Origin: a virus
IMG/VR virus record: IMGVR_UViG_3300023108_000164
Coordinates: 1 to 22,911 of that record
Strand: one strand, 5' to 3'
DNA length: 22,911 bases
Made by a program: the position numbers and the translations under genes. Shown here piece by piece: positions 3,472 to 22,783 of this stretch; the first letter of the stretch is position 1, and each line of letters begins with the position of its first letter. Below the pieces are notes generated by a model. That model was not told the DNA's origin. It did not search any database and saw nothing but the letters and a program-made list of their open reading frames with translations.

Positions 3472-3474
3472 TGT

Positions 3475-8727: not shown

Positions 8728-8730
8728 ATA
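8724..8730 (+). promoter_or_regulatory. T4-type late promoter box overlapping the fibre stop
   Basis: ATAAATA includes the TAA stop (8725-8727) of the fibre gene and lies 22 bases before the ATG at 8753, a spacing close to the other late boxes here. Confidence 0.6.
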
Positions 8731-8752
8731 GATAAAAAGGTCTGTGTAGACG

Positions 8753-10309
8753 ATGCCTAGTAATTTTAAGACCGTTGTTAATTTTAGAGACGGTATTCAG
8801 GTTGATACAGATGATATTGTATCGTCTAATGGTTTCGTTGGTATTGGTTCAACCCTTCCAAGAGATACATTAGATGTAAGAGGTAACACACTTATCTCTG
8901 GTAATCTTGATGTTACCTCTGTTAATATTAGCGGAGTTACTACGATTGCTGATGGGTTTACCGTTGGTCTTGGTAACTCTGTTGGTATTGGAACTTCTGT
9001 TCCTGAGGCAACATTCCAGGTCGGTGTTGGTACAACTGGTGTAACAATTAGTGCCGCTGGTAGTGTAACTGCTGTCACATACTATGGTGATGGTGGATCA
9101 TTACTTAACCTCCCAACATCTCAGTGGCTTGATGTTGATGTAGGACTTGGATTTACCAGCATTTATGCACAAGGCAATGTTGGTATTGCGACGACTAATC
9201 CTCTATCAACCTTACAGATTGGTAATCGTATTAGAGTAGATGGTCCATCTGGTGTAATGACTGCTTTCACCTTTTCAGGTGATTTAGATGGAACTGCTGC
9301 CTTTGCCACTACAGCAACCAGTGCATCAGGAATACAAGACACACCTGATATTGAGGTTGGTAGTATTGTTGGAGCGTCTGCATCTATCACTGGATTTGTT
9401 ACTGCTACCAGTAGTCTTTCGGTTGGTGTTGCTTTCCAAGCGGATGCTGGTGGAATTGTAACAGGAACCAAATTTATTGGTGCCCTAGATGGTTTGGCAT
9501 CTCAAGCAAGAGTTGCTGCTGGAACCACAGATGATCCAGAGATGGTTGTTACCAGTATCGCATCATCTTCGTCTTCATTAAAACCATTCCAGTTGACAAG
9601 TTCTGGCATCTCAACCTTTGAGGGTGATGTTGCTATCTTAGATCAATTAGCAATTGGAGCTGCTACACCTGCAGGTGGAGTTGCTTTAGATGTTACTGGA
9701 AATGCTTCAGTTCAGGGAACTCTGACACCAACTACTCTAAATGTTGGTGGATTGCTTATTAACTCTGCGGTAATCACTTCTGGTGCTATTAACTTTACTG
9801 CAGGTGTATCCACATTCAATGATGCAAAGATTAACACCCTTGAGGCAACCTCTAATCTAAAAGTTGGTTCCTCAGATAATGCAAATCAACCTCTAGATGT
9901 TGTCGGAAATGCTGTTTTTGATGGAAGTGTTGGCATCGGAACAAGTATTCCACTTGGTAAGTTTGATTTATTAGGTGGTACAGCTTTAGTTAGACAAAAT
10001 ACATTTATTGGAACCAGTATCTACGATAACAGCATTGTAGATACTAACTCTATCTACAATGATACTGTATTCCCTGGTCCTGGTGCTGGTTCAGATGGAT
10101 CACAAAGCGCAAATGTTGGTATTGGTACAACAGTTGCGAGAAGTGCTCTTGACATGCAATATGCAAAGAGACCTTTGATTCTTCCAGTGTTCACATCCAC
10201 GGAAGAAAATGCTCTTGATTCGCAATATGAAATTGAAGGAGCGATTCTTTATAACAGCACCACAGGCAAGGTTCGATACTTTAATGGTTCTTCATGGGCT
10301 AACGTCTAA
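8753..10309 (+). CDS. Tail fibre/virion protein with VGIGT repeats
   Basis: A 518-residue structural protein built from a repeated strand-turn motif, VGIG(T/S)-x-x-P-x-x-x-L-x-V. Copies include VGIGSTLPRDTLDV, VGIGTSVPEATFQV, VGIATTNPLSTLQI, VGIGTSIPLGKFDL and VGIGTTVARSALDM. The motif is common in phage tail fibres and related trimeric beta proteins. The start (MPSNFKTVVNFRDGIQVD) is typical of a fibre-family N-terminus that docks onto another virion part. The C-terminus (EGAILYNSTTGKVRYFNGSSWANV) resembles the common fibre-tip ending in which a strand pair reads YN-T-K-FNG-W. It is preceded by its own late box and followed after 2 bases by the Gly-rich adhesin gene, so the two proteins may assemble in one fibre. 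No enzymatic motif is seen. Confidence 0.85.
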   Translation: MPSNFKTVVNFRDGIQVDTDDIVSSNGFVGIGSTLPRDTLDVRGNTLISGNLDVTSVNISGVTTIADGFTVGLGNSVGIGTSVPEATFQVGVGTTGVTISAAGSVTAVTYYGDGGSLLNLPTSQWLDVDVGLGFTSIYAQGNVGIATTNPLSTLQIGNRIRVDGPSGVMTAFTFSGDLDGTAAFATTATSASGIQDTPDIEVGSIVGASASITGFVTATSSLSVGVAFQADAGGIVTGTKFIGALDGLASQARVAAGTTDDPEMVVTSIASSSSSLKPFQLTSSGISTFEGDVAILDQLAIGAATPAGGVALDVTGNASVQGTLTPTTLNVGGLLINSAVITSGAINFTAGVSTFNDAKINTLEATSNLKVGSSDNANQPLDVVGNAVFDGSVGIGTSIPLGKFDLLGGTALVRQNTFIGTSIYDNSIVDTNSIYNDTVFPGPGAGSDGSQSANVGIGTTVARSALDMQYAKRPLILPVFTSTEENALDSQYEIEGAILYNSTTGKVRYFNGSSWANV

Positions 10310-10311
10310 AA

Positions 10312-12666: not shown

Positions 12667-12669
12667 ATA
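12663..12669 (+). promoter_or_regulatory. T4-type late promoter box
   Basis: CTAAATA includes the TAA stop (12664-12666) of the adhesin gene and lies 20 bases before ATG 12690. It is identical to the box at 3475. Confidence 0.5.
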
Positions 12670-12689
12670 TTTTTACGTCAACCTTTATT

Positions 12690-13364
12690 ATGAACATTCA
12701 GAGAATTAAGACGTTACTTGCGGAACCAAACTGTATTATGAACATTTTTAATTTGTTTCCGACACCCGTTGGGTTTGTCGGTGGTGTGCTTACGGAAGAA
12801 GAACGTAATAAGTTAATCGAACAGGTAGAAAATTGTGATCAATTACTACCTAATCAAAGTTCAAAAGATTTAACACATACTGGTGCGGTAGACTCGCTTC
12901 AAGGTCCAGAGATTGATAACTTATGTAAGAAGTTATCTCCACACATTCGTGACTTTGGATTCCAATTAATGGGTGATGATTCCCTTAATTGGAACATCAT
13001 TGGTTTGTGGGGAAATATAATGAAGAAGGGAGGATGGCAATACAAACATAATCATGGCAACTCAGTAATCTCTGGTGTTGTATATCTTCAAATGCCAGAA
13101 AATGCTCCTGCAACCACATTTTGGAGACCAGAGCGTGGTGATACTTTCTTCCTTGCACATGATGGTCCAGGTAGAACGACAGACTACAACTCAGGATATA
13201 TTGATCTAAAGAATGTAAAAGCAGGTGATGTAGTTCTCTTCCCCAGTTATTTGACTCATAGTGTAGAAGAAAGTGGTGATGGAGATAGAATAACTCTCGC
13301 TTTCAATGTTGTGCCAGATCGTATCAATATCTTAGATACATATTATTTGAAACTATCCTCTTGA
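12690..13364 (+). CDS. 2-oxoglutarate/Fe(II)-dependent oxygenase
   Basis: A double-stranded beta-helix dioxygenase of the phage/marine bacterial putative 2OG-Fe(II) oxygenase family (PF13759/TIGR02466 type). Numbered from ATG 12738: N-terminal FPTPVGF (7-13); HNHGNSVISGVVYLQMP from 104, with His104 and His106 in the usual H-x-(D/E/H) iron site; LFPSYLTHSVEE with distal iron ligand His174; and RITLAFN with Arg184, expected to bind the 2-oxoglutarate carboxylate. The family hydroxylates unknown targets. The start is uncertain: ATG 12690 is 20 bases from the late box, but family members usually begin just before FPTP, which favours ATG 12738 (208 residues). Neither has a clear ribosome site, and both sit in the same ATTATGAACATT sequence. 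The next gene follows after 2 bases. Confidence 0.85.
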   Translation: MNIQRIKTLLAEPNCIMNIFNLFPTPVGFVGGVLTEEERNKLIEQVENCDQLLPNQSSKDLTHTGAVDSLQGPEIDNLCKKLSPHIRDFGFQLMGDDSLNWNIIGLWGNIMKKGGWQYKHNHGNSVISGVVYLQMPENAPATTFWRPERGDTFFLAHDGPGRTTDYNSGYIDLKNVKAGDVVLFPSYLTHSVEESGDGDRITLAFNVVPDRINILDTYYLKLSS

Positions 13365-13366
13365 TT

Positions 13367-13798
13367 ATGACTGAAGAAAATCAACAATATCCATCTTTAG
13401 GTGAACAGGTTAAAAACTTTGGATCATCTTTCCACGAATTGGTATCTCGTGCGGTTCAAGGTAATAGACTATTAGCACCCAGAGAAACTCAACTTGCAAG
13501 ACTTGAGATATGTAAAGCATGTGAGTTCTTTGATGCATCACAAGAGAGATGCACTAAGTGTGGTTGCTATTTGAGAGCGAAGGCAGTAATGAGTTATGAA
13601 ACATGTCCCGTAGGTAAATGGGGCACAGATGATTCACTATTCAAAGAATGGTTAGCTAATGGTGCAGAGGCAACATTCAATGAGGAAACTCCTTACTACA
13701 TCAAAAGATTGCCAAATGGGAAAATGGTTCCCGTTGAAGAATATGAACAAAGATTAAAGGATTACGAAGAATTTGGTGATGACTTGACAGGGGAATAA
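13367..13798 (+). CDS. Zinc-ribbon-like phage protein
   Basis: A 143-residue protein. Residues 49-80 hold six cysteines (ICKACEFF, then RCTKCGCYLRAKA, then ETCPVGKW), a CxxC-x9-CxxCxC-x12-C pattern able to bind one or two zinc ions. The motif recurs in small phage proteins of unknown function, often beside tail or fibre genes. The N-terminal helix region and acidic C-terminus (RLKDYEEFGDDLTGE) have no recognised motif. I chose ATG 13367, 2 bases after the oxygenase stop; TTG 13361 in the same frame is possible but overlaps that stop. Coupling to the oxygenase and the shared late promoter suggest joint late expression. A DNA-binding or assembly role is possible but unproven. Confidence 0.75.
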   Translation: MTEENQQYPSLGEQVKNFGSSFHELVSRAVQGNRLLAPRETQLARLEICKACEFFDASQERCTKCGCYLRAKAVMSYETCPVGKWGTDDSLFKEWLANGAEATFNEETPYYIKRLPNGKMVPVEEYEQRLKDYEEFGDDLTGE

Positions 13799-13911
13799 TA
13801 TTCCACTAGAATACCTTTGCTAAGGTTGGTCAGAGTATCTTAAGGATTACTCAGAGACCCATAAGGAACCTTTATCGGTCTACCCTGTTGACAGTCTCGG
13901 ACCAACCCTGC
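13799..13911 (+). other. Structured spacer between late and early blocks
   Basis: No gene is visible. It contains an 8-base inverted repeat, GGTTGGTC (13824-13831) and GACCAACC (13900-13907). Between these arms lie smaller dyads: GAGTA...TACTC around 13834-13853, and ATAAGG-AA-CCTTTAT around 13861-13875. The outer right arm falls in the spacer of the consensus promoter. There is no U-run, so a simple terminator is unlikely. A structured leader, a small RNA or an operator is possible. Confidence 0.4.
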
Positions 13912-13917
13912 TATAAT
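13888..13917 (+). promoter_or_regulatory. Near-consensus sigma70 promoter
   Basis: TTGACA (13888-13893), an 18-base spacer and TATAAT (13912-13917) match both consensus hexamers exactly. Initiation is expected near 13924. It drives the ParB-like gene and marks the switch from late-promoter to host-sigma expression, as expected of an early phage block. Confidence 0.8.
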
Positions 13918-13994
13918 AACCACATGATCAGGCAACTGGTCAGATGTTCATTAATCGTTGCTTAGTCAGCGATTATTATTTGGAGTATTCCCTA

Positions 13995-15089
13995 ATGAAA
14001 CGCCTTCCTTTTAATGATGACCTTCTCAAGAAATTGAAAGTGGATCGTGATGATGATCCCCTTTACAATTTTCCATTACTGCGCTCCATAGAGTTCAGTA
14101 TGAAGAGCACTTTTTCACTTCTCTCCACCCTTAATGAGGCACGGGGAACCTCAAAAGAGCACGGAAATGTTGATGCTCTTACTGCATCAATGAAACGTGG
14201 TTGGGATGTTGGTGCATGGCCCTTTCCCTTTATCAATATCAATGGTTCTTGCGAACTTATTGATCGTCGTCATAGCAAGAGTGCAGCAGAATCGCTGTTA
14301 ATCAAGAGGGTTCCTGCAGTAGAGTATGTTCGTGTTTCTTCTGATGAGTGGGATTGTCTTGATGACAAGTCTGTTTTAATCCTTGCTGCTATCCGTTTTA
14401 ATGTGGATGGCACTACCAACGCAACGAAAGAACACTTTGTTCATGTTGTTTTGACTGTCTGTAAGATCCAGGGTTTCGATCATACTGATATCGATATTGT
14501 TCGTGGTCTCCTTGACCTTGCTGGAGTCAACGAAAGGTATAATCACGTCGGTCCTATTACCTCTATCGAGAACAAGATTCTTGGATATGATGAGGATGAA
14601 GATGGTCCAATTTCCATGACCAAGCACTGCACTGACGAAGACTTTAGCAAGTATGTTGACACATTGCCACAGTTTGGTGATAACCAAGTAGACAAGGACG
14701 GAACTCTTCTTCATGTCATGGTAACAGATCCTCGGTATAATAAGCGTTATGCTTGGGACCTTTTGCGTCACATCTGGGAAGCGGAAGCACTTGGCAAGTC
14801 TGTCCGTGTTCTCATCCGCAGCAAGTCAACTACTGCTCGTGGTGTTCGTAAGGACCGTGAAGATCTTTTCACTAAGGTAGTGGAGTATTGCAATCTTGCC
14901 TATGATAGCTATCGTCTATTTGCAGCAGATGTTATCAACTCTCAGTTGCCGTCTTTCTTTGGTGGTGGTATTGATCTTCCTCGGAAAGGTGTAGAGAATC
15001 TTCCTGGTGAAGTTTATGTCGTAGATCAACTTGATGGTGAAGAAGCACCTCAACTCGTTGATTTCTTGGATTACTACCCTCACCTGTGA
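13995..15089 (+). CDS. ParB/sulfiredoxin-fold-like protein, unknown function
   Basis: A 364-residue protein, first gene behind the consensus promoter. Residues 58-100 recall the ParB N-terminal fold: NVDALTASMKRGWDVGAWPF, then ININGSCELIDRRHSKSAAES, where DRRHSKSAA matches the usual D-G-x-H-R-x-x-A-A motif with Arg in place of Gly. This fold includes DNA-binding ParB, nucleases and CTP/ATP-binding switches; I cannot say which applies. The middle (about 120-165) is helical, and an acidic loop (GYDEDEDGPI) follows. I chose ATG 13995 because GGAG stands 9 bases upstream; an in-frame ATG 13944 has no ribosome site. The TGA stop lies inside the dyad at 15086, and the helicase gene follows. A partnership with the helicase is inferred from position only. 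Confidence 0.6.
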   Translation: MKRLPFNDDLLKKLKVDRDDDPLYNFPLLRSIEFSMKSTFSLLSTLNEARGTSKEHGNVDALTASMKRGWDVGAWPFPFININGSCELIDRRHSKSAAESLLIKRVPAVEYVRVSSDEWDCLDDKSVLILAAIRFNVDGTTNATKEHFVHVVLTVCKIQGFDHTDIDIVRGLLDLAGVNERYNHVGPITSIENKILGYDEDEDGPISMTKHCTDEDFSKYVDTLPQFGDNQVDKDGTLLHVMVTDPRYNKRYAWDLLRHIWEAEALGKSVRVLIRSKSTTARGVRKDREDLFTKVVEYCNLAYDSYRLFAADVINSQLPSFFGGGIDLPRKGVENLPGEVYVVDQLDGEEAPQLVDFLDYYPHL

Positions 15090-15154
15090 CAGTACGCTAA
15101 ACCGTCCACCAGACCCCTCAGGATGCCCTCCTGGGGGGTTATACTGTATTCAAC
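15086..15154 (+). promoter_or_regulatory. Dyad, hairpin and -10 control cassette, copy A
   Basis: Left arm GTGACAGT (15086-15093) contains the upstream TGA stop; right arm AACCGTCCACCA follows (15100-15111). After the hairpin comes TATACT (15140-15145), three bases, then TTCAAC. No -35 hexamer is visible at the normal distance. GTCCAC begins 36 bases before the -10 box. It lies directly ahead of the helicase gene. Confidence 0.55.
15113..15139 (+). terminator. GC-rich hairpin, probable terminator
   Basis: ACCCCTCAGG (15113-15122) pairs over ten bases, with one T-G wobble, with CCTGGGGGGT (15130-15139) around a 7-base loop. The following run is only TTATA, so termination may be partial; the stem also occupies the -35 region of the next promoter. 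Confidence 0.55.
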
Positions 15155-15169
15155 AAGGAAAGACACCTA

Positions 15170-16348
15170 ATGCAACTGCGACCCCATCAGCAACGTGCTC
15201 TGGATGCCATGCTGGTGAATGATAAAGGTCAGATCATCGTCCCTACGGGTGGTGGTAAGACTATCTGCATGATTGAAGATTGCCGCATGTTGATGAACGC
15301 ATTGCACGGCAAGAATCCTACCTTTATTGTTGTTGCTCCTCGCATTATGCTTGCTGAGCAACTCTCTTCTGAGTTTCTTGAGTTCATCACTGATGTAAAT
15401 GTGATGCACGTTCATAGTGGTGAGACCCATCACTATTCTTCTACCAAACCCCATGAGATTCGTGGTTGGTGGGAGAAGAACAACGATGCACCACGTCTTA
15501 TCTTTACCACCTACAATTCGCTGCGTCGTGTACAATCTGCAAATGTTTTTGCAGACACTATTTACTTCGACGAAGCACACAATAGTGTGAAGCGGAACTT
15601 CTTTCCTGCCGTTGAGTATTTCAGTGCTCTTGCAGATCGTTCCTTCTTCTTTACTGCAACTCCCAAACATTCTGCCACTATCACTAAACCAGGCATGAAT
15701 GATGCTGAGGTTTATGGTGAGGTGATTGAGCAAGTTCCCGCTCCTGAACTTGTTGAGGGTGGTTACATTCTCCCTCCTAAGGTTGTTGTTCAGGAACTGA
15801 AGAATGTGGGCATTGGTCAAACCATTTACGAACGTGATTGTGATCACCTGCTAGAGTCTATCGACGGCAATGAGAACATGCAAAAGGTTCTTATTTGTGC
15901 CAAGAAGACTAAAGACATCATCAATGTTGTCGGTCAGTCTCCTTTCATCGGCAAGATGCATGAGAAAGGTTACTCCGTGATGTGGATTACTTCCAAGCAC
16001 GGTGCATTTATTGATGGTGTAAAAGTTGACCGTGAGAAGTTCTTCGACACCATGAATGAGTGGGGTCGTGATGCAAACAAGAAGTTTGTTGTCATGCACC
16101 ACTCTATTTTGTCTGAAGGAATCAACGTCCACGGTCTCTCTGCCTGCATCATGTTGCGTGGCATGGATTACATCGAGATCGCACAAACTGTGGGTCGTGT
16201 TATCCGTCTGGGTGAAGGCAAGACCTTTGGACTTGTCAATGTCCCCGTATTTGGCAATGTTGGTATCAACACCGCTGCCAAAGTTCAGAAAGTCGTTGAC
16301 ATCATCTTTGAGCAGGGTGATGCTGCTATCTCCACCATTCGTCGTTAA
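15170..16348 (+). CDS. SF2 DNA/RNA helicase (UvsW/SSL2-like)
   Basis: A 392-residue superfamily 2 helicase with a full motif set: LRPHQQRAL (3-11) as Q-like region, PTGGGKT (25-31) Walker A, VVAPRIMLAEQ (54-64) motif Ia, DEAH (134-137) Walker B, FTATP (161-165) motif III, and QTVGRVIRLGEGK near the C-terminus as motif VI with its arginine finger. Related enzymes unwind or anneal DNA branches; T4 UvsW is the phage example, at about 500 residues, so this is a compact core without obvious extra domains. It could be UvsW itself in a reduced form or a separate helicase. ATG 15170 follows AAGGAA by about 10 bases. The gene has its own promoter cassette and is coupled by TAATCATG to the next gene. 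Confidence 0.88.
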   Translation: MQLRPHQQRALDAMLVNDKGQIIVPTGGGKTICMIEDCRMLMNALHGKNPTFIVVAPRIMLAEQLSSEFLEFITDVNVMHVHSGETHHYSSTKPHEIRGWWEKNNDAPRLIFTTYNSLRRVQSANVFADTIYFDEAHNSVKRNFFPAVEYFSALADRSFFFTATPKHSATITKPGMNDAEVYGEVIEQVPAPELVEGGYILPPKVVVQELKNVGIGQTIYERDCDHLLESIDGNENMQKVLICAKKTKDIINVVGQSPFIGKMHEKGYSVMWITSKHGAFIDGVKVDREKFFDTMNEWGRDANKKFVVMHHSILSEGINVHGLSACIMLRGMDYIEIAQTVGRVIRLGEGKTFGLVNVPVFGNVGINTAAKVQKVVDIIFEQGDAAISTIRR

Positions 16349-16350
16349 TC

Positions 16351-16563
16351 ATGGCACATCATTCTGTTCTTCGTATTAAGAAAAAGTCATGGACTGCTGG
16401 GTTTGGTAAAGACAAATCAAAGGGAAATTATGTGGTAGCACAGAAAGAAATGGAACTAGAAATTACATGGAAAGATTCTATGAAACCTCAGTTTATTCCA
16501 TTTATTGATGACCATGGACATCAGGGAATGAAAGTCATTATCGAACACCAAAAAAACTTGTAA
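16351..16563 (+). CDS. Small basic protein of unknown function
   Basis: A 70-residue, Lys-rich protein (MAHHSVLRIKKKSWTAGFGK). It starts 2 bases after the helicase stop in a TAATCATG junction, with no ribosome site, so translation by re-initiation is likely. Its TAA overlaps the next ATG (TAATG). The charge (many Lys, a few Asp/Glu) and short strands (ELEITWKDS, GMKVIIEHQ) suggest a small beta protein. I recognise no family. Position suggests an accessory of the helicase or of the following gene. Confidence 0.65.
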   Translation: MAHHSVLRIKKKSWTAGFGKDKSKGNYVVAQKEMELEITWKDSMKPQFIPFIDDHGHQGMKVIIEHQKNL

Positions 16564-17177
16564 TGGAAACTGTCACTCAACTGGTTCAAGACCTCCGCTC
16601 TGTGCCTGCGGAAGTTTATCAAAATTTCTGCAATCAGGCACGGATTGTTGCACTCCAGTACCCTTTGGCGCATGGAATGGACTGTTTTGCCCGTGGTGAA
16701 ACTATCGAATATGGTTTCATTGATACTGTAGGGACACATGTTGCCCTGAAAGCTAACACAAAAGAAGATTTTAACGATCCCGATGCGCTTTATGGTCTAG
16801 AGCACCTGACTGACGTGAAAACGCAGGTAAATGGGTTTTTACCACAAAAGAGCAAAAAAGCACTGTTTTATTCTAAACAATGGGACATCAAGAAGACCGC
16901 GCAAGGTTCATCCAAGTTCACATCTAAGGCACAGTCTTACATCCTAATCGACCCAATGTGTGCTAGAATTGCTGTTGTTGATACTCAGGTATTTTACAAC
17001 AAACCATTCAAGTCTGGTGCTGCTCGTATCTCCTTCAGTGTAAAACCTGGTGACGTGCATATGATTTATGATGGTGTTTCCAATGTTCTTGATGTTGAAG
17101 TTGAGGCAAATTCTAGTGCCATCTTCAAGATGATTTGGGAAAATGCAGGCAAAGTTCTCAACGAGGTGACCCAATGA
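16563..17177 (+). CDS. Unknown protein with weak PD-(D/E)XK nuclease-like features
   Basis: A 204-residue protein. The N-terminal half is helical (METVTQLVQDLRSVPAEVYQ). Around residues 72-88, DPDALYGLEHLTDVKTQ contains an Asp-Val-Lys core (D84, K86) with acidic residues before it (D72, D74, E80). That is loosely like the Asp and D/E-x-K of restriction-endonuclease-fold nucleases, followed by strands (SYILIDP, RIAVVDTQVFY). This is a weak match; a virion or other DNA-metabolism protein is equally possible. It starts by a 1-base TAATG overlap and ends in an ATGA overlap with the DUF4385 gene, so it belongs to the helicase operon. The conserved-looking gene order suggests DNA processing, but the function is not known. 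Confidence 0.6.
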   Translation: METVTQLVQDLRSVPAEVYQNFCNQARIVALQYPLAHGMDCFARGETIEYGFIDTVGTHVALKANTKEDFNDPDALYGLEHLTDVKTQVNGFLPQKSKKALFYSKQWDIKKTAQGSSKFTSKAQSYILIDPMCARIAVVDTQVFYNKPFKSGAARISFSVKPGDVHMIYDGVSNVLDVEVEANSSAIFKMIWENAGKVLNEVTQ

Positions 17178-17668
17178 AAGAGTTTGATTATGATCTGGAT
17201 TACAAATCTCTTGACTTTACAGATGCAGAAACTCGCAAACTTTATCGTATTGGAAGGGGAGAACAAGGAGTGCTATTGGTACGCCCTTACACTAACGATA
17301 TATGCCAACATTGGAGGTTCAGGAATACTGATGTAGCAGAAACTTCATCCCGTTCGATATACAATCTGTTCTCAATGTACAAGGAGAAGGAAGATTTTAT
17401 CGGCATGGATATGTGTCGTAAGTTCTTAGAAATGGGATTTACCCGTGCTCGTCGTTACGCAAACCACAAATCTGGTCGCAAGTATGCAACCAAACCACCA
17501 TATTATCACACTGGAGATAGGGGTGGAGCACCCGTACTTCCGCAGGAAAAAGATGCTTTGACCAATGAAAAAGCACAGGCAGCATCAATTTTCAAAACTG
17601 TGCGTGATATTGTAGCAACAGACCCTCAGTATGTTAAAATGAGGAAAGAATGGAGGGCAGCAGAATGA
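17174..17668 (+). CDS. DUF4385 family phage protein
   Basis: A 164-residue protein matching the DUF4385 family as I recall it: FDYDLDYKSLDF near the start, YRIGRGEQGVLLVRPY at about 24-39, HWRFRNTDVAETSS, then DFIGMDMCRKFLEMGFTRARRYANHKSGRKY around 75-110. The family occurs widely in cyanophages and some bacteria; its function is unknown to me. The conserved basic stretch (RARRYANHKSGRKY) could bind nucleic acid. I chose ATG 17174, which overlaps the previous stop (ATGA), over upstream in-frame codons that would read into the preceding gene. It ends in another ATGA overlap. Truncation is unlikely. Confidence 0.85.
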   Translation: MKEFDYDLDYKSLDFTDAETRKLYRIGRGEQGVLLVRPYTNDICQHWRFRNTDVAETSSRSIYNLFSMYKEKEDFIGMDMCRKFLEMGFTRARRYANHKSGRKYATKPPYYHTGDRGGAPVLPQEKDALTNEKAQAASIFKTVRDIVATDPQYVKMRKEWRAAE

Positions 17669-17823
17669 CAGAGGACATTTTGCAAACTACACTGAGTCAT
17701 GTAACAAGTGCCATCAAGTTAATTGAAGGCAATGAATATGAACAGTATATGAATCTCCATCTCACCTCAGTTTACTACGAAATTAAGCGTCAACTCACTA
17801 ATCTTGAACAGACAGCATCATGA
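17665..17823 (+). CDS. Very small helical protein, unknown
   Basis: A 52-residue protein (MTEDILQTTLSHVTSAIKLI, ending NLEQTAS). It is linked by ATGA overlaps on both sides, to the DUF4385 gene and to the next small gene, which is the main evidence that it is real. The sequence predicts two amphipathic helices (about 3-20 and 28-47). No family is recognised. Confidence 0.6.
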   Translation: MTEDILQTTLSHVTSAIKLIEGNEYEQYMNLHLTSVYYEIKRQLTNLEQTAS

Positions 17824-18053
17824 CACCCTACTACATTGAGGATCTTCGTTCATACTATCTGCCACCTCCGATGATAGAAGTTGAGCAGGAAATCGTAGAG
17901 TATTGTGATTACTTTACCGTTGATGCTAAACGTACTGAATTGAGGTATAAAGATTGTGTCTGGATGCATCTTGGATTCTATGGAAATAATGCCGACACAA
18001 TGAAGAAAGTTCGTCAGAATTGGCGTCCACCTATTAAACCTGTCTTTGAATAA
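17820..18053 (+). CDS. Small acidic protein, unknown
   Basis: A 77-residue protein beginning MTPYYIEDLRSYYLPPPMIE, rich in Tyr and acidic residues, with a C-terminal KKVRQNWRPPIKPVFE. It starts in an ATGA overlap with the preceding gene and is followed by a TAATCATG junction. There is no signal peptide or recognised motif. The even spread of codons and gap-free packing support a real gene. Confidence 0.65.
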   Translation: MTPYYIEDLRSYYLPPPMIEVEQEIVEYCDYFTVDAKRTELRYKDCVWMHLGFYGNNADTMKKVRQNWRPPIKPVFE

Positions 18054-18055
18054 TC

Positions 18056-18277
18056 ATGAGCAAACCACTTACACAGGATGAAGTTTCTGCAGCAGCAGAA
18101 CAATTCTTTCCATTATTTGATATTGTACATCAACAAATGCCTGAAAGTGCAACCATTGAGGATACACTGAAGGTTATGGAGACTGTATGCACCCTGGCAC
18201 ATAAATTGCGTGCGGAAGAAGAACTTGCACCCTTTGGATTTAACAAAAAAACTGATGACGGACAAGAAACTAATTGA
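18056..18277 (+). CDS. Small acidic helical protein, unknown
   Basis: A 73-residue protein (MSKPLTQDEVSAAAEQFFPL). It is mostly helical with acidic surfaces and ends in KKTDDGQETN. The start is a TAATCATG re-initiation junction without a ribosome site, and the 3' end overlaps the next gene by 23 bases in another frame. No family is recognised. Confidence 0.65.
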   Translation: MSKPLTQDEVSAAAEQFFPLFDIVHQQMPESATIEDTLKVMETVCTLAHKLRAEEELAPFGFNKKTDDGQETN

Positions 18278-18467
18278 CGACGTGTTCTACATCAAGGAGG
18301 ATGTTCTCTGGACCAGTTATGACAAAGAAGACAAACCTTTGGTGAGTGGTTTAACCGAGCATGACTGTATTACCATGACTCGCTTTTACTTAAAGGGCAA
18401 ACAAGAGGGGTGGGATGATAATCAAAGCAGGGTAGTTAATGATGGAGTTGTGGGAGGCAAACTGTGA
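18255..18467 (+). CDS. Small protein, unknown
   Basis: A 70-residue protein. ATG 18255 (MTDKKLIDDVFYIKEDVLW) is preferred over upstream in-frame codons that only add sequence overlapping the previous gene. Residues 30-60 (LTEHDCITMTRFYLKGKQEGW) suggest a helix followed by a basic loop. Its TGA stop lies within the left arm of the control cassette at 18464, as at 15086 and 20435. It is the last gene of the helicase transcription block. No family is recognised. Confidence 0.65.
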   Translation: MTDKKLIDDVFYIKEDVLWTSYDKEDKPLVSGLTEHDCITMTRFYLKGKQEGWDDNQSRVVNDGVVGGKL

Positions 18468-18521
18468 CGGTTGACCTAGTGGCACACAATGCGGGTTCTG
18501 TGGGAACCCCGTTGCTATAAT
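18464..18521 (+). promoter_or_regulatory. Dyad, hairpin and -10 control cassette, copy B
   Basis: Left arm GTGACGGT (18464-18471) includes the upstream stop; right arm GTGGCAC (18479-18485). A small hairpin, GGGTTC (18493-18498) with GAACCC (18504-18509), precedes TATAAT (18516-18521). GTGGCAC begins 37 bases before the -10 box. There is no U-run and no -35 at the usual place. Confidence 0.55.
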
Positions 18522-18546
18522 TACAGAGTAATCAACCAAAGGCACC

Positions 18547-18978
18547 ATGGGCACTCGTTCCCTCATCGGCAAGCAACTCAAGGATGGTAGCATCTTGGGC
18601 GTATATTGCCACTATGATGGTTATCCTGAGTTCAATGGTCGGATCTTGCGTGATAAGTTCGACACCGCAGATAAAGTTAGCAAACTGATCGACGGTGGTG
18701 ATATGTCATGCACTTGGACTAATGCAGGTTGGCAGAATGAAACTCTGCCCGAATCTGGTCCCCTTCACTATACTATGCGTGGTGAATCTCTGGAGAATAA
18801 TGCACCTAATCTCTACAAAGATCTCAATGAGTTCTTGTGTGCTGCTGACGATAATTACGGTGCAGAGTATACTTATCACTATGTAAATGGTGAATGGATT
18901 TGTCACGATGTTCGTCCTAATCCTTATACTAAAAACAATGTGATGGAAGTTCCCATCCCTGCTGGACCAGTTGCATAA
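18547..18978 (+). CDS. Conserved phage protein (MGTRSLIG type)
   Basis: A 143-residue protein beginning MGTRSLIGKQLKDGSILGVY, then CHYDGYPEFNGRIL. This opening recurs in many phage proteins of unknown function, and I recognise it from memory only. The central region (GGDMSCTWTNAGWQNE) and the Asp/Tyr-rich end (AEYTYHYVNGEWICHDV) are also typical of that group. The small size and lack of signal peptide suggest a soluble cytoplasmic protein. It has its own promoter cassette upstream and a strong hairpin just after its stop, so it is probably transcribed as a single gene. Confidence 0.75.
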   Translation: MGTRSLIGKQLKDGSILGVYCHYDGYPEFNGRILRDKFDTADKVSKLIDGGDMSCTWTNAGWQNETLPESGPLHYTMRGESLENNAPNLYKDLNEFLCAADDNYGAEYTYHYVNGEWICHDVRPNPYTKNNVMEVPIPAGPVA

Positions 18979-19030
18979 GTGGCACGGGGGAGCATAAAAG
19001 CTCCCCATCATGCCCTATAATAAGTTCATC
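18967..19030 (+). promoter_or_regulatory. Dyad, hairpin and -10 control cassette, copy E
   Basis: A weak left arm CCAGT (18967-18971) lies in the end of the upstream gene; right arm AGTGGCAC (18978-18985) follows the TAA. After the hairpin comes TATAAT (19016-19021), AAG, then TTCATC. GTGGCAC begins 37 bases before the -10 box. Confidence 0.55.
18987..19006 (+). terminator. Strong hairpin, probable terminator
   Basis: GGGGAGC (18987-18993) pairs perfectly with GCTCCCC (19000-19006) around ATAAAA. Flanking GGCA and TGCC may extend the stem. There is no U-run, so it may act as a weak terminator or stabilise the upstream mRNA end. Confidence 0.5.
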
Positions 19031-19043
19031 AGCAAAAGAGTTC

Positions 19044-19409
19044 ATGACTTTCACTGAATTCAAACAACAACAAGACGCACGCAACACCATTGAGTTGAAC
19101 ATTCGTAAGTATTGTCTGATGCTCTGTGATGCTTTGCTGGACAACTTCAAGTCCCGCAATAATAGCAGCAGTAGTGACTATAAGTTCTACATTGAGTCTG
19201 GGCGTAAGTATCACAAACTGATCATGGAGACTGGTGCGGGCTCTCGTAGTGTTCATGCCTTCGTTGATAAGAAAACTGGTGAAGTCTTCAAGGCAGCATC
19301 ATTCAAAGCACCTGCAAAAGGTGTTCGTTACAATCTCTTGAACATTGCATCCCGTGAGGAATGTTTTGCTCGTGCAGATTGGGCGGGTTCTTATCTCTAT
19401 CTCCGTTGA
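19044..19409 (+). CDS. Conserved cyanophage-type protein, unknown function
   Basis: A 121-residue protein. The C-terminal part (about 55-105), YIESGRKYHKLIMETG followed by SRSVHAFVDKKTGEVFKAA and FKAPAKGVRYNLL, is a pattern I recall from many T4-like cyanophage genomes as an unnamed protein. It looks like a small beta domain with conserved basic and aromatic residues, possibly nucleic-acid binding. The N-terminus (MTFTEFKQQQDARNTIELN) is helical. It is first in a five- or six-gene run driven by the TATAAT at 19016. The next gene follows after 2 bases. Confidence 0.75.
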   Translation: MTFTEFKQQQDARNTIELNIRKYCLMLCDALLDNFKSRNNSSSSDYKFYIESGRKYHKLIMETGAGSRSVHAFVDKKTGEVFKAASFKAPAKGVRYNLLNIASREECFARADWAGSYLYLR

Positions 19410-19411
19410 TT

Positions 19412-19642
19412 ATGAGTTATAAAATCTCTCATTCTTTCACTGGTCACTCTTACATTCTGGAAGAGTATGATGACAAGGTTGAAGCAATTGCTGCTATCAA
19501 CAAAATGATTAATGAGTGGGGTGAACCTGACCCCACTGATGAATTCTTGGAGTTGTACTATTACAATGAAGAAACTGAAGAAATGATTGATGAGATTGTG
19601 GTGCATTATTTGACCGACCCTGATACTTGGGAGGACGATTAA
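19412..19642 (+). CDS. Small acidic protein, unknown
   Basis: A 76-residue, very acidic protein (MSYKISHSFTGHSYILEEYD, ending DPDTWEDD). ATG 19412 stands 2 bases after the previous stop; upstream in-frame codons lie inside the previous gene and are not needed. The strong negative charge (nearly 30 percent Asp/Glu) could mimic DNA or bind a basic protein, but that is speculation. It ends by TAATG overlap with the next small gene. Confidence 0.7.
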   Translation: MSYKISHSFTGHSYILEEYDDKVEAIAAINKMINEWGEPDPTDEFLELYYYNEETEEMIDEIVVHYLTDPDTWEDD

Positions 19643-19794
19643 TGAAGTTCAAAGTAGTCTACCAACAACTGAAGAAAAAGACATTCAAAAAACAAGAAGC
19701 AGTCTTTTTTGATGAACGTGACGCTATCAACTGGGAGCATTATGTTCGGACCCTAGATAATACTAGGAACATTGAAATTCACCCCATTTTCTGA
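19642..19794 (+). CDS. Very small basic protein, unknown
   Basis: A 50-residue protein (MKFKVVYQQLKKKTFKKQEA), starting in a TAATG overlap with the preceding gene. The pattern of a strand (KFKVVYQQ), a Lys-rich loop and a helix (FFDERDAINWEHYVR) resembles other small phage proteins with an alternating beta-alpha layout, such as that at 20872. The last 22 bases coincide with a promoter-like TTGAAA/TATAAT pair. No family is recognised; overlap and codon use support reality. Confidence 0.6.
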   Translation: MKFKVVYQQLKKKTFKKQEAVFFDERDAINWEHYVRTLDNTRNIEIHPIF

Positions 19795-19800
19795 TATAAT
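19772..19800 (+). promoter_or_regulatory. Possible internal sigma70 promoter
   Basis: TTGAAA (19772-19777), a 17-base spacer and TATAAT (19795-19800) form a good sigma70-type promoter inside the end of the 50-residue gene. The -10 box is only one base before ATG 19802, so a transcript from the usual position (about 19807) would miss that ATG and serve the gene at 19963. Confidence 0.45.
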
Positions 19801-19801
19801 T

Positions 19802-19960
19802 ATGGCAAATCTTGTGTATGTGGTTGAGTTTTGCTCTCCCACTCTTGCAATGCAAAAGATGGAAGTTGCAGCACTAAGTCCTGACGCAGCTGAACAAGTT
19901 GTTCGCAGGATGTACGGCAACGATGTTCAAATCTATCGTAACAATCCCGAGTATAGGTAA
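19802..19960 (+). CDS. Very small protein, unknown
   Basis: A 52-residue protein (MANLVYVVEFCSPTLAMQKM, ending RNNPEYR). Residues 3-10 form a likely strand, followed by a helix (AALSPDAAEQVVRRMYG) and a second strand (DVQIYR), a compact beta-alpha-beta layout. ATG 19802 is chosen 7 bases after the previous stop; an earlier in-frame ATG at 19772 would read through the preceding gene's end. It is followed by a TAATCATG junction. No family is recognised. Confidence 0.6.
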   Translation: MANLVYVVEFCSPTLAMQKMEVAALSPDAAEQVVRRMYGNDVQIYRNNPEYR

Positions 19961-19962
19961 TC

Positions 19963-20214
19963 ATGGCATCTGACTTTAATCTAAAACCAAAACCCCAACG
20001 TCCTGGTGAGAAAGTTGTAATTACTCCCCAAGAATTACCACTCAATCCACCCCCAGAGCGTCGTTATCGTGTCGAGGAACTGACTACAACTGGTTGGGAA
20101 CTTGCCGATGAAAAGTGTACTAATCTTACCAAAGATGAGGCACACAAAGCATTAAAGAATTTCCTTGATGATGGTCTAGCACCTAATCGTTTGCGGGCAA
20201 TTCCTGATAATTAA
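19963..20214 (+). CDS. Small proline-rich-start protein, unknown
   Basis: An 83-residue protein. The N-terminal third is unstructured and Pro-rich (LKPKPQRPGEKVVITPQELP), then YRVEELTTTGWELADEKCTN and a helix (KDEAHKALKNFLDDGLAP) suggest a small alpha/beta domain; phrases of the type RVEELTTTGWEL recur in small cyanophage proteins that I know only as unnamed. It starts in a TAATCATG junction and overlaps the next gene by one base (TAATG). Confidence 0.7.
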   Translation: MASDFNLKPKPQRPGEKVVITPQELPLNPPPERRYRVEELTTTGWELADEKCTNLTKDEAHKALKNFLDDGLAPNRLRAIPDN

Positions 20215-20438
20215 TGCGTCCTTACATTCTAAATGAAAAGTGTGAACCACCGTCGTATGTTACCAAAGATTGGACATACATGGTGGTTCCTAACACTGAA
20301 GGAACTGAATGGTGCTTGCTAGGTGACATTCCATGCAGACAGATTAAATGGTTCAAAGATTTCGATAAAGCGGTAGATTACTGCAAAAAGTATCACAAAA
20401 AGAATAAGAAAGGACCACTAGACAGGTTCACCGTGTGA
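20214..20438 (+). CDS. Small basic protein, unknown
   Basis: A 74-residue protein with a strongly basic end (KYHKKNKKGPLDRF). The part WTYMVVPNTEGTEWCLLGDI and the following helix (FDKAVDYCKKYH) suggest a small alpha/beta fold. Cys residues occur at 10, 34, 41 and 57. It starts by a one-base TAATG overlap with the previous gene, and its TGA stop lies inside the dyad at 20435. A nucleic-acid-binding role is possible from charge only. Confidence 0.65.
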   Translation: MRPYILNEKCEPPSYVTKDWTYMVVPNTEGTEWCLLGDIPCRQIKWFKDFDKAVDYCKKYHKKNKKGPLDRFTV

Positions 20439-20502
20439 CAGTCGCACAAACTGTCCACCACCCCCAGCAATGGGGGTTTTTTTGTGCCATACTATGTTCA
20501 TA
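20435..20502 (+). promoter_or_regulatory. Dyad, hairpin and -10 control cassette, copy C
   Basis: This is the clearest copy. Left arm GTGACAGT (20435-20442) contains the upstream TGA; right arm ACTGTCCACCA (20450-20460). GACAGT and ACTGTC are perfect inverted halves. After the terminator comes CATACT (20488-20493), ATG, then TTCATA. GTCCAC begins 35 bases before the -10-like box. Confidence 0.6.
20460..20483 (+). terminator. Rho-independent terminator
   Basis: ACCCCCA (20460-20466) and TGGGGGT (20471-20477) pair over seven bases around a GCAA tetraloop, followed by a further run of six T. It is the only textbook intrinsic terminator in the window. Confidence 0.85.
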
Positions 20503-20520
20503 CCAATCAAGGGAACGCAA

Positions 20521-20703
20521 ATGACCCGAATCGAAATCAATGCCGAACTGACCAAACTCCGCTTCGAGCGTGAGAAGGCACAGCGTGAGGTTGATAACAT
20601 TCAGGCGTGCATGAATGAGTTAATGCGGAAACGCAATGAGTTGGATCGTCAACTGGAAGTTGAAGAGATGGGTACTCTTTTCGATCAAATGTTCGGAGGT
20701 TGA
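20521..20703 (+). CDS. Small coiled-coil protein, unknown
   Basis: A 60-residue, highly charged protein (MTRIEINAELTKLRFEREKA, then QREVDNIQACMNELMRKRNEL). Residues about 5-50 form a probable coiled coil with regular hydrophobic positions, so it probably dimerises. ATG 20521 has a good ribosome site (AAGGGA, 6 bases upstream) and stands after promoter cassette C. The coiled coil suggests a scaffold or partner-binding protein; no family is recognised. Confidence 0.7.
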   Translation: MTRIEINAELTKLRFEREKAQREVDNIQACMNELMRKRNELDRQLEVEEMGTLFDQMFGG

Positions 20704-20707
20704 TAAC

Positions 20708-20869
20708 ATGGAAACCAAATTTCTCCTCTGGGGTGAACATCATCGTCACAATGGTTGGGTGATGAGAGATTGCCTAGGTTACATTGCTTCTAGTAAAGAA
20801 GAGGCAATCGCAAAATGTAATCAAAATCAACCACAGTTTGTAATCCAATCCGTCACCATTGAAAACTAA
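20708..20869 (+). CDS. Very small protein, unknown
   Basis: A 53-residue protein (METKFLLWGEHHRHNGWVMR), starting 4 bases after the coiled-coil gene; upstream in-frame codons lie inside that gene and are ignored. Residues 24-40 (YIASSKEEAIAKCNQNQ) form a helix followed by a strand (FVIQSVTIEN), a beta-alpha-beta pattern like its neighbours. It ends in a TAATCATG junction. Confidence 0.65.
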   Translation: METKFLLWGEHHRHNGWVMRDCLGYIASSKEEAIAKCNQNQPQFVIQSVTIEN

Positions 20870-20871
20870 TC

Positions 20872-21048
20872 ATGAAGTATGAAATCATCGTTGAATGGAA
20901 CAACAAGGCATCAAACATTTTGTATGACAAACGCACCACACCTAAGACACAACGAGGTGCAAATCGTCAACTGGCAAATGTAGTGAAGAAGTACGAAGAG
21001 TATTTTGCTGGATATGATTACATGCGTCTAACTGTCACTGCTATCTAA
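20872..21048 (+). CDS. Very small basic protein, unknown
   Basis: A 58-residue protein (MKYEIIVEWNNKASNILYDK), with strand, basic loop (RTTPKTQRGANRQLANVV) and C-terminal strand (MRLTVTAI). The start and stop are both TAATCATG junctions. The beta-alpha-beta pattern and net positive charge suggest a small nucleic-acid-binding protein, but that is inferred from shape only. No family is recognised. Confidence 0.65.
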   Translation: MKYEIIVEWNNKASNILYDKRTTPKTQRGANRQLANVVKKYEEYFAGYDYMRLTVTAI

Positions 21049-21050
21049 TC

Positions 21051-21236
21051 ATGAAACTCTCAAAACAGATTGAAAAGTTAATGATTTCTCGTGGTTATCG
21101 TCTTGCACGAACCAAGAAACATAACGTCTGGGTGAATAGCAAAGGGCAGACAGTTACAACCTCTAAGACTACAGGAGACGCAGGAAGATTGCTCAAGAAT
21201 ATTGAGCGTGACATCAACAAACTTGCGAGGGTTTGA
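21051..21236 (+). CDS. Small basic protein, HicA/dsRBD-like fold possible
   Basis: A 61-residue basic protein: helix (KLSKQIEKLMISRGYRL), then three short strands (RTKKHNVWVN, GQTVTTSKT), then helix (AGRLLKNIERDINKL). This alpha-beta-beta-beta-alpha order, with a His in the KHNVW strand, recalls the HicA mRNA-interferase fold. Typical HicA proteins have a G-S-H-x-x-F/Y pattern; here KKHNVW is the nearest equivalent, so activity is uncertain. No HicB-like antitoxin gene is evident next door. It may be a phage RNA-binding protein of the same fold. The start is a TAATCATG junction. Confidence 0.65.
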   Translation: MKLSKQIEKLMISRGYRLARTKKHNVWVNSKGQTVTTSKTTGDAGRLLKNIERDINKLARV

Positions 21237-21249
21237 GTAAAGAATGGTT

Positions 21250-21307
21250 GTGCCAGTCACACGAACTGTCCACCATTGCCCCCACGGGCACCAAAATCGT
21301 GTATATT
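21250..21307 (+). promoter_or_regulatory. Dyad, hairpin and -10 control cassette, copy D
   Basis: Left arm GTGCCAGT (21250-21257); right arm AACTGTCCACCA (21264-21275). A weak hairpin, TGCCC (21277-21281) with GGGCA (21286-21290), precedes TATATT (21302-21307). GTCCAC begins 34 bases before the -10 box. Here the stop of the upstream gene is 13 bases before the left arm. Confidence 0.55.
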
Positions 21308-21332
21308 AAAAGAGTCAAAGGAATCGCACCAA

Positions 21333-21569
21333 ATGCAACTCACTTCACAAGGTCAACATCGTGCAATGGTCGTTGAGTTTCGTCCTCACAACATTCTCAG
21401 CGAAAAGTTTGTCTACACTCTCAAATTCATGGGAGATGAGATGACCAAATCCATGCGTTTGATGAGCAAAAAAGAAATGATTGAGACTGTAAATGCACGT
21501 CTTGATCTTAACTATGAGGTGACAGATTTCCTTACTGAGCCTCAAGAATATCTGCCATGTGCCTGCTGA
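21333..21569 (+). CDS. Small protein, unknown
   Basis: A 78-residue protein. ATG 21333 (MQLTSQGQHRAMVVEFRPHN) is chosen because AAAGGAA lies about 9 bases upstream and because it follows the TATATT promoter; a longer frame would start inside the control cassette. Residues 10-35 suggest strands (AMVVEFRP, KFVYTLKFM), then a helix (SKKEMIETVNARL). A CAC end follows EYLPC. First gene of the last operon; no family is recognised. Confidence 0.7.
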   Translation: MQLTSQGQHRAMVVEFRPHNILSEKFVYTLKFMGDEMTKSMRLMSKKEMIETVNARLDLNYEVTDFLTEPQEYLPCAC

Positions 21570-21597
21570 TCAATCTGCAAAACTTCCCCACAAACTA

Positions 21598-21804
21598 ATG
21601 CAATTCCAAATCCTTTCTGTCGATTTTGATGTTGACTGCAACATCTATGATCCTTCACTTGAGTGCCCTACAAGTGAGGAACTTGCAGAGAATTACATTG
21701 GTGAAATTTGGGAGGCAGATGATGAAGATGATTTGATTGAAGAAATCACAAACGATGCAGCACATTGCATCTATTCTATTGACTACCGTATCATCCTTAA
21801 ATGA
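21598..21804 (+). CDS. Small acidic protein, unknown
   Basis: A 68-residue, very acidic protein (MQFQILSVDFDVDCNIYDPS, then GEIWEADDEDDLIEEITNDA). ATG 21598 has no clear ribosome site; GTG 21559, overlapping the preceding gene, would add 13 residues and is an alternative start. The first strand and final strand (CIYSIDYRIILK) suggest an alpha/beta fold. Many Asp/Glu could allow metal binding or DNA mimicry, but no family is recognised. Ends in an ATGA overlap. Confidence 0.65.
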   Translation: MQFQILSVDFDVDCNIYDPSLECPTSEELAENYIGEIWEADDEDDLIEEITNDAAHCIYSIDYRIILK

Positions 21805-21980
21805 ACATGAACCGCTCCGAACTTCAACAACAACTTGTTAACGAAATGATTGACGGGATGGATCACAAAACTATGTGGTCAGTTCTTGATAGTTACATGA
21901 TGGAGAGTTATGGTAAGTATACCGATGATGAATTGATGGAAGAAGTTAAAGAATACTACCCTGAACTTTTGGAGGAATAA
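21801..21980 (+). CDS. Small helical cyanophage-type protein
   Basis: A 59-residue protein (MNMNRSELQQQLVNEMIDGM, then YTDDELMEEVKEYYPELLEE). I recall similar short proteins, of the type NRxELQQQLVNEMIDGMD, from other T4-like cyanophages, all of unknown function. It is acidic and helical throughout. ATG 21801 overlaps the previous stop; a second ATG 21807 is a possible start. The 3' end carries TTGGAGGAATAATG, serving as ribosome site and start for the next gene. Confidence 0.7.
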   Translation: MNMNRSELQQQLVNEMIDGMDHKTMWSVLDSYMMESYGKYTDDELMEEVKEYYPELLEE

Positions 21981-22195
21981 TGTCACTCATCAAACAACAT
22001 CTTCACCACATTCAACAACAAACAATGGATCAAGATTCTATCACGGAAATGTTATCACTGTCCGAAGAAATTCAGGAACAGATTGAAATTGCAGGTGAAC
22101 TTTGGGAACTCAGTGACTTTGAAATCACCGCATTATGTGGCATGGTTGCTGATGCTTTCGCTAGCAAAGGTATCTCACTGAAGGAGTTAGTATGA
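21980..22195 (+). CDS. Small acidic helical protein, unknown
   Basis: A 71-residue protein (MSLIKQHLHHIQQQTMDQDS, then EEIQEQIEIAGELWELSDFE). The start is well supported by GGAGG six bases upstream, embedded in the previous gene's end. It is almost wholly helical and acidic after a His/Gln-rich first helix. It ends in an ATGA overlap preceded by AAGGAG, which serves the next gene. No family is recognised. Confidence 0.7.
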   Translation: MSLIKQHLHHIQQQTMDQDSITEMLSLSEEIQEQIEIAGELWELSDFEITALCGMVADAFASKGISLKELV

Positions 22196-22329
22196 GGATC
22201 ATTCTTGTCGCTTTTGTTATCATCATCGGTGCCAACATTGGCATTAATTTGATTGAGAAAGTTTCTGAGATTCAAGATAACAAAATGGCACAGTTTTGCA
22301 AGGTCGATCCGTCCTATTGTGCCAATTGA
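22192..22329 (+). CDS. Tiny one-helix membrane protein
   Basis: A 45-residue protein. Residues 2-20 (RIILVAFVIIIGANIGINL) form a membrane helix or signal anchor, followed by a short outside part with two Cys (FCKVDPSYCAN) that could form a disulfide. The ribosome site AAGGAG lies 7 bases upstream and the ATG overlaps the previous stop. Its TGA lies between the arms of the dyad at 22319. The function is unknown; an envelope-modifying role early in infection is possible. Confidence 0.7.
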   Translation: MRIILVAFVIIIGANIGINLIEKVSEIQDNKMAQFCKVDPSYCAN

Positions 22330-22384
22330 CTAGGTGGCACAATTTTCTGGCATTGCCGCCCAGATGCCCTATTGTATGTTCATA
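22319..22384 (+). promoter_or_regulatory. Dyad, hairpin and -10 control cassette, copy F
   Basis: GTGCCA (22319-22324) and TGGCAC (22335-22340) are perfect inverted halves around the TGA stop. A weak stem, GGCAT (22349-22353) with ATGCC (22364-22368), precedes TATTGT (22370-22375), ATG, then TTCATA. GTGGCAC begins 36 bases before the -10-like box. TGTATG-TT-CATACA (22374-22387 region) is also palindromic. Confidence 0.5.
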
Positions 22385-22432: not shown

Positions 22433-22783
22433 ATGCGTAAGATCGAAAAGCAAATGTGTGCCGCAGTTCAAAAGAACATCAACTGGCAATCTGCTAATAC
22501 TTCTGTTCACTTTGACCCCGAAACTGGGGTGTCTGTTGTTCGTCTTCATGGCAACAAGATTGCCGAGATTTCTGACAACGACATGACAATCTTCGACGGT
22601 GGTTGGCAATCTGTCACCACTAAATCTCGTCTCAATGCATTATGCGATGAGTTCTGCATTGCTGGTGAAGGTGTTTTCCAGAAAGATTTTAAGTGGTTTG
22701 TGCGTAAAGTTGTCGCACAATCTCCCATCACTGGTAAAGTCTTCAACGTCGAAGATTTCACCAATGGTTATGTTTTTGCCTGA
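22433..22783 (+). CDS. Conserved phage protein, unknown function
   Basis: A 116-residue protein. ATG 22433 (MRKIEKQMCAAVQKNINWQS) is preferred; longer frames begin inside the control cassette. The stretch VRLHGNKIAEI, then TIFDGGWQSVTTKSRLNALC and GEGVFQKDFKWFVRK, is a pattern I recall from many phage genomes as an unnamed protein. It looks like a small beta-sheet protein followed by a helix, ending NVEDFTNGYVFA. There is no ribosome site close to the ATG. The upstream cassette indicates separate transcription. Confidence 0.75.
   Translation: MRKIEKQMCAAVQKNINWQSANTSVHFDPETGVSVVRLHGNKIAEISDNDMTIFDGGWQSVTTKSRLNALCDEFCIAGEGVFQKDFKWFVRKVVAQSPITGKVFNVEDFTNGYVFA

Follow-up and report, generated by a model that had tools for sequence, protein, structure and literature searches.

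Six repeated units in the genome of a T4-like cyanophage appear to be promoters that borrow a transcriptional regulator of the host. Each unit combines an imperfect DNA dyad with a -10 box at a nearly constant distance downstream. Because the dyad copies the promoter of the cyanobacterial non-coding RNA Yfr2 in both half-site and spacing, its likeliest binder would be the GntR-family regulator of the host (PMM1637 in Prochlorococcus). Based on sequence comparison, a probability of about 0.6 is given to the use of this regulator by the phage as an activator at these promoters.

The units lie in a record of 22,911 bases, analysed over its whole length (the window), which comes from the genome of a T4-like cyanophage (Kyanoviridae). 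It is most closely related to myoviruses of Synechococcus and Prochlorococcus, with identities of approximately 65–78%. The gene order runs from tail-fibre genes to a uvsW-like helicase gene (15170–16348) and then to a series of small genes. Each copy would serve as a promoter of this small-gene, probably early, region.

Six Copies of the Element in the Window

A weight matrix was trained on 246 sites of other phages, with the window and near-identical contigs excluded. On the plus strand of the window it returned exactly six strong sites, scoring 30–47 bits (Table 1), and the next-best site scored 8.8 bits. The top score among 300 Markov-shuffled windows, read on both strands, was 27.5 bits, which rules out chance repeats. 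Weaker minus-strand matches at 22340, 20457 and 18485 are the palindromes of the six copies read in reverse. The six positions are those listed in an earlier note on this DNA, apart from the third copy, which exists but has its left arm (GGACCAGT) at 18964 rather than at 18967. Its -10 box at 19016 lies 52 bases from the corrected left arm, matching the other copies.

The note had also placed the upstream stop codon in or between the arms of four copies. The pattern holds, although for five copies: TGA lies within the left arm at 15087, 18465 and 20436, and the stop falls between the arms at 18976 (TAA) and 22327 (TGA). At some dyads in other genomes, the TGA of the upstream gene likewise sits inside GTGACA. 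A GC hairpin had been ascribed to every copy; it is strong in copies 1–4 (p ≤ 0.005 against shuffles) but weak at 21250 and 22319 (p 0.03–0.045), and a clear U-tract is seen in copy 4 only. No TTGACA-like hexamer was found 16–18 bases before the -10 box in any of the six copies.

Table 1. Features of the six copies in the window (offset, bases from left arm to -10 box).
Feature	Position	Strand	Score or remark
Copy 1 dyad, GTGACAGT-ACGCTAAA-CCGTCCAC	15086..15109	+	36.8 bits
Copy 1, TGA stop of the 13944-15089 ORF inside left arm			From ORF list
Copy 1 GC hairpin	15113..15139	+	-20.1 kcal/mol, p<0.005
Copy 1 -10 box TATACT, ahead of uvsW-like helicase 15170-16348	15140..15145	+	Offset 54; orthologous site in 10 genomes
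Copy 2 dyad, GTGACGGTTGACCTAGTGGCAC, left arm holds TGA stop	18464..18485	+	35.1 bits
Copy 2 GC hairpin	18487..18514	+	-14.7 kcal/mol, p<0.005
Copy 2 -10 box TATAAT, ahead of ORF 18547-18978	18516..18521	+	Offset 52
Copy 3 dyad, weak left arm GGACCAGT, right arm GTGGCAC, TAA between	18964..18985	+	30.1 bits
Copy 3 GC hairpin	18987..19006	+	-15.3 kcal/mol, p<0.005
Copy 3 -10 box TATAAT, ahead of ORF 19044-19409	19016..19021	+	Offset 52; orthologous site in 7 genomes
Copy 4 dyad, GTGACAGT-CGCACAA-ACTGTCCAC, left arm holds TGA stop	20435..20458	+	46.8 bits
Copy 4 intrinsic terminator, ACCCCCA-GCAA-TGGGGGT, then T run	20460..20477	+	Hairpin -13.2 kcal/mol
Copy 4 -10 box CATACT, ahead of ORF 20521-20703	20488..20493	+	Offset 53
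Copy 5 dyad, GTGCCAGT-CACACGA-ACTGTCCAC	21250..21273	+	46.3 bits
Copy 5 small weak hairpin	21277..21290	+	-7.8 kcal/mol, p=0.03
Copy 5 -10 box TATATT, then common leader AAAAGAGTCAAAGGAA; ORF 21333-21569	21302..21307	+	Offset 52; orthologous site in 5 genomes
Copy 6 dyad, GTGCCAATTGACTAGGTGGCAC; arms flank TGA stop of small ORF 22192-22329	22319..22340	+	35.8 bits
Copy 6 small weak hairpin	22349..22368	+	-7.4 kcal/mol, p=0.045
Copy 6 -10 box TATTGT, ahead of ORF 22433-22783	22370..22375	+	Offset 51; orthologous site in 8 genomes

Architecture of the Element

The consensus, GTGMCASTT-N4-6-A(A/G)STG(K)C(C)AC, forms an imperfect dyad, and the -10 box mostly lies 52–53 bases past its left arm. In 14 sequences, the offset of the -10 box from the left half-site peaked at 52 (20 cases) and 53 (9 cases) over a background of 2.6. 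Between genomes, identity is 0.81 in the left arm and 0.76 in the -10 box. The 22 bases between them show an identity of 0.29, against 0.26 for random sequence, and their spacing is constant (52 ± 1–2). That the spacer keeps its length while its sequence varies almost at random points to the geometry of a protein and RNA polymerase and not to recent copying. Compensatory changes between the arms were not detected (counts 21/13/24/19, Fisher p=0.65), which rules out an RNA stem or hairpin and leaves the dyad as a DNA site. The earlier suggestion of a DNA-binding dimer just upstream of the promoter is thus well supported by the fixed spacing, the non-covarying arms and the near-random spacer.

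The other parts of the unit are less constant. A hairpin between dyad and -10 box (MFE <= -6) is present at 46% of 257 sites, so the terminator–promoter unit that had been offered as a second explanation fits only about half of the sites. A match of at least 4/6 to TTGACA at the correct distance occurs at 101 of the 257 (approximately 40%), and the reported lack of a -35 hexamer, correct for the window, fails as a general rule. At these frequencies, both hairpin and -35 hexamer are accessory. Dyads lie at a gene end in 27 of 30 cases (20% by chance), and a gene start follows within 70 bases past the -10 box in 23 of 30 (17% by chance). The conserved upstream dyad and the -10 box would act as a promoter, probably an early one.

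Distribution Among Cyanophages

The element was found in most of the cyanomyovirus genomes examined and in more than 240 IMG/VR stretches. The form GTGNCAGTN7ACTGTCCAC has at least 120 IMG/VR matches, and 73 of the 99 distinct sites among the matches listed have a -10 box 28–30 bases past CCAC. The palindrome TGTGCCASTTN4AASTGGCACA also has at least 120 matches; here the -10 box stands at 51–54 in 143 of 150 perfect-palindrome sites among those listed. Several palindrome-bearing records carry gp23 (the T4-type capsid gene) or psbA/psbD, which marks them as T4-like cyanophages.

With the matrix, 11–19 plus-strand sites each were found in S-RIM8, Syn9, Syn19, S-PM2, P-SSM4, Syn33, P-SSM2, P-HM2, Bellamy and S-SSM7, and 13 minus-strand sites in S-RSM4, against 0–1 sites in shuffled genomes. 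The sites mostly form one cluster, which lies between tail-fibre and baseplate genes in the annotated genomes at hand; in Syn9, eight clustered sites span 43–53 kb, and one site of this phage is at 46290. The element also stays with its genes. The uvsW orthologues keep a site in 10 genomes and other gene families in 4–8, among them those to which the window genes at 22433 (eight), 19044 (seven) and 21333 (five) belong, counts in which the sites of related phages are not independent of one another. The arms and spacing therefore recur outside the window and are conserved in cyanomyovirus relatives, as the earlier note had expected of a genuine control element.

A second promoter system is found in sister lineages. 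Three of the 18 compared phages (SynMITS9220M01, S-SM2 and RN05-S) have few dyad sites and instead carry unrelated repeated elements, TTACTCACCYCTAAAGTGTYCCTATAGTRT and AAGGGGGGTCGCNTAAAGYGTCCCTATAGTRT, before the same orthologous genes. These replacement elements take the form TTACTCACC..AAAGTGTCC-TATAGT or GGGGGGTCGC..AAAGYGTCC-TATAGT, and TTACTCACCYCTAAAGTGTYCCTATAGTRT is also present in 19 IMG/VR stretches. The comparison shows what appears to be an exchange of promoter grammar at the level of lineages. The cobS-like genes of the same three phages retain dyad-like sites.

Relation to Known Promoter Systems

A novel regulatory element of early genes has reportedly been described by Doron and colleagues (2016, ISME J 10:1437) in Syn9 and P-TIM40 and is said to be conserved in T4-like cyanophages; the abstract of that study reportedly names no binding factor. 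The phage dyad resembles this element in being abundant and conserved in T4-like cyanophages, and Syn9 carries the eight sites given above. The two are probably the same, in which case the element as such was probably known already.

Two other systems of T4-like phages offer partial likenesses. Promoter–stem-loop cassettes (PeSLs; Arbiol 2010; Comeau 2014; both as cited in PMC4503421) are also repeated intergenic units of promoter and stem-loop, but the constant part here is the upstream dyad and the stem-loop is optional. T4 middle promoters similarly pair a -10 box with an activator site, that of MotA, in place of a good -35 box. Their box lies at -30, whereas the dyad lies at approximately -63 to -40; the dyad, ending 28–30 bases upstream of the -10 box, does not occupy the MotA position. 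Cyanomyoviruses have been described as lacking motA and asiA (PMC2984593).

The closest parallel is found in the host. The yfr2 promoters, at which the CGRE1 element and PMM1637 are reported (Lambrecht et al. 2018, DNA Res 25:489, as cited in PMC6778093), have the same half-site (TGTGACAGTT), the same distance to the -10 box and RNA start, and the same orientation. The second half-site is better in the phage (AACTGTCCAC or AASTGGCACA) and degenerate in the host, and the phage sites, unlike those of yfr2, precede protein genes. The phage dyad may correspond to CGRE1. The link between yfr2 and the GntR regulator may already have been stated in the 2018 study, and the likeness of phage and yfr2 promoters may have been noted there or in the 2016 study.

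A Host GntR Regulator as the Probable Binder

Across 257 Gb of bacterial and archaeal genome sequence, the TGTCCAC form of the dyad has only 3 matches, which rules it out as a host-wide element. One of the three lies on a marine MAG contig with phage-like sequence downstream. The symmetrical form was found in 18 of 390 cyanobacterial genomes (1 for the reversed control), and several of these matches directly precede the Cyano-1/Yfr2 non-coding RNA (Rfam RF01701). Away from Cyano-1, some host matches lack a -10 box and may be due to chance.

The yfr2 promoters were examined at 35 loci, 30 of them from small cyanobacterial genomes (whose label as picocyanobacteria leans partly on the yfr2 sequences) and five from others. 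The half-site TGTGACAGTT (TGTG[AC]CA[GCA]TT) was present 57–63 bases ahead of the RNA start in 31 of the 35, against 1% by chance, and many have a -10 candidate, GATATT or similar, at +53. The right half is AGAGGTCTA in most Prochlorococcus-sized genomes, unlike the phage dyad, and matches the phage dyad in several other cyanobacteria.

A GntR domain (PF00392) was not found in 19 phage records, the window included; each of the six host genomes tested has one strong GntR gene. PMM1637 presumably belongs to the PlmA/Sll1961 family, and this conserved GntR protein of the host has been linked to redox state and to nitrogen/carbon status. PMM1637 is described as common to all cyanobacteria, as binding the yfr2 promoters that contain CGRE1, and as the route by which nitrogen starvation and high light induce Yfr2 (PMC6778093). 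The view in the earlier note that no described factor has this site thus looks wrong, since the yfr2 promoter has the same half-site and spacing and PMM1637 is reported to bind there.

The proposed mechanism is as follows. A dimeric protein, most likely the host's own GntR regulator, would sit on the dyad at approximately -63 to -40 and help the host RNA polymerase to start at the -10 box. The bound dimer would stand in for a good -35 box, and the place thus freed could carry a hairpin that terminates transcription coming from upstream.

The main fact left unexplained by a purely host-driven system is the swap of elements, since the three dyad-poor phages infect similar hosts. Such a swap would be expected if a phage-encoded factor had changed, and a phage-encoded binder is the better, though still improbable, of the alternatives. 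The candidate is phrog_661, a small protein (AbrB-like; MazE-like by Pfam) from the 3' end of the same cluster (42339–42509 in S-RIM8), which could activate the promoters or shut them off later. Its gene adjoins or ends the site cluster in many genomes and was found in 11 of 14 site-rich genomes, with a strong match in none of four site-poor ones. The site-rich phages P-HM2, S-SSM7 and Bellamy do not have it, which rules it out as the sole factor, and it would leave the match to host yfr2 promoters unexplained. Indeed, none of the phage proteins has a distribution that matches that of the sites in every genome compared. Dam methylase, considered as a partner, co-distributes too, but at the BLAST cut-off it was missing from S-SSM7 and S-CAM9. 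A search for a T4-like capsid-targeting N-terminus, the mark of an injected activator, found no conserved candidate. The phrog_661 protein could act as a second regulator beside the GntR protein.

Could the dyad be the operator of a repressor? Shutdown of early genes is usual in phages, and a dimer at this position could block upstream contacts of the polymerase. The host RNA polymerase would then use the -10 box immediately and the dimer would silence the early genes afterwards. This is somewhat less probable again, as the strict spacing to the -10 box and the frequent absence of a -35 hexamer favour an activator; the host factor at yfr2 is described as mediating induction (PMC6778093). Activation by a GntR protein, rather than repression, seems the better fit to these patterns. 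Very improbable is a mobile PeSL-type cassette kept for module recombination, in which the dyad is only a recombination arm or RNA stem: the units are intergenic, often have a hairpin and belong to phages in which PeSLs are described (cited in PMC4503421), but the spacer is random yet of fixed length, a stable hairpin is missing from half of the sites, no covariation links the arms, and orthologous genes keep their units.

Conclusion

How cyanomyoviruses take over host transcription without the T4 switches alt, modA, motA and asiA is a long-standing question (PMC2984593). We would give even odds to the fuller account, in which the early region is driven by multiplied and improved copies of the yfr2/CGRE1 promoter that borrow a single host GntR regulator, while sister lineages have swapped the element wholesale before the same genes. 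The promoter match to yfr2 names a concrete host protein for the takeover. If this is right, phage takeover would be tied to the host regulator through which high light and nitrogen starvation are reported to induce Yfr2 (PMC6778093).

Putative promoter elements with and without the dyad

A second repeated putative promoter element, which does not contain the dyad, occurs in other cyanomyoviruses (MT408532, S-SM2, and RN05-S). This element was found to precede orthologues of dyad-driven genes in stretches of all three genomes (L128, L207, and L246). Two predicted promoters within the window also have no dyad. The one at 13888-13917 represents a promoter class different from the dyad type in the same window; the one at 19772-19800 lies near the 3' end of a small ORF and close to where the following ORF begins.

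A leader following the -10 box was seen in many dyad sites, for example at positions 21308-21323 of the window. One subclass of sites, including this example, shares the leader (A)AAAGAGTCAAAGGAA 3' of the -10 box, and leaders containing TATGTTCATA or AGTACATAACAAACAA are found in other subclasses. In the cyanobacterial genome stretch L471, the dyad lies between tandem genes for the host small RNA Cyano-1/Yfr2.

Coordinates of putative promoter elements and of genes
Feature	Location	Details
Second element, form TTACTCACCYCTAAAGTGTYCCTATAGTRT	MT408532 40001-60000 (L128)	7 copies
Second element, form AAGGGGGGTCGCNTAAAGYGTCCCTATAGTRT	S-SM2 40001-60000 (L207)	8 copies
Second element, TTACTCACC (under form TTACTCACCYCTAAAGTGTYCCTATAGTRT)	RN05-S 1-20000 (L246)	14 times, one strand
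Predicted perfect host-type promoter, TTGACA-18-TGCTATAAT	window 13888-13917	upstream of ORF at 13944
Predicted strong sigma-70-like promoter, TTGAAA-17-TATAAT	window 19772-19800	no dyad
Two tandem Cyano-1/Yfr2 RNA genes	L471 1403-1640	cyanobacterial genome
Small AbrB/MazE-like protein gene (phrog_661)	S-RIM8 42339-42509 (L122 23535-23705)	and orthologues
Very basic 201-aa protein	MT408532 40815-41420 (L128 815-1420)	

Phage proteins

Most of the cyanomyoviruses that bear the dyad have the gene for the phrog_661 protein in their probable early region, and some genomes carry paralogues at other places. The 201-aa basic protein is present in the phages with the second promoter element and absent from the dyad phages. 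Its N-terminus in MT408532 (MKTFAQFVNE) is of the T4-like capsid-targeting type, and this protein is possibly an injected DNA-binding protein.
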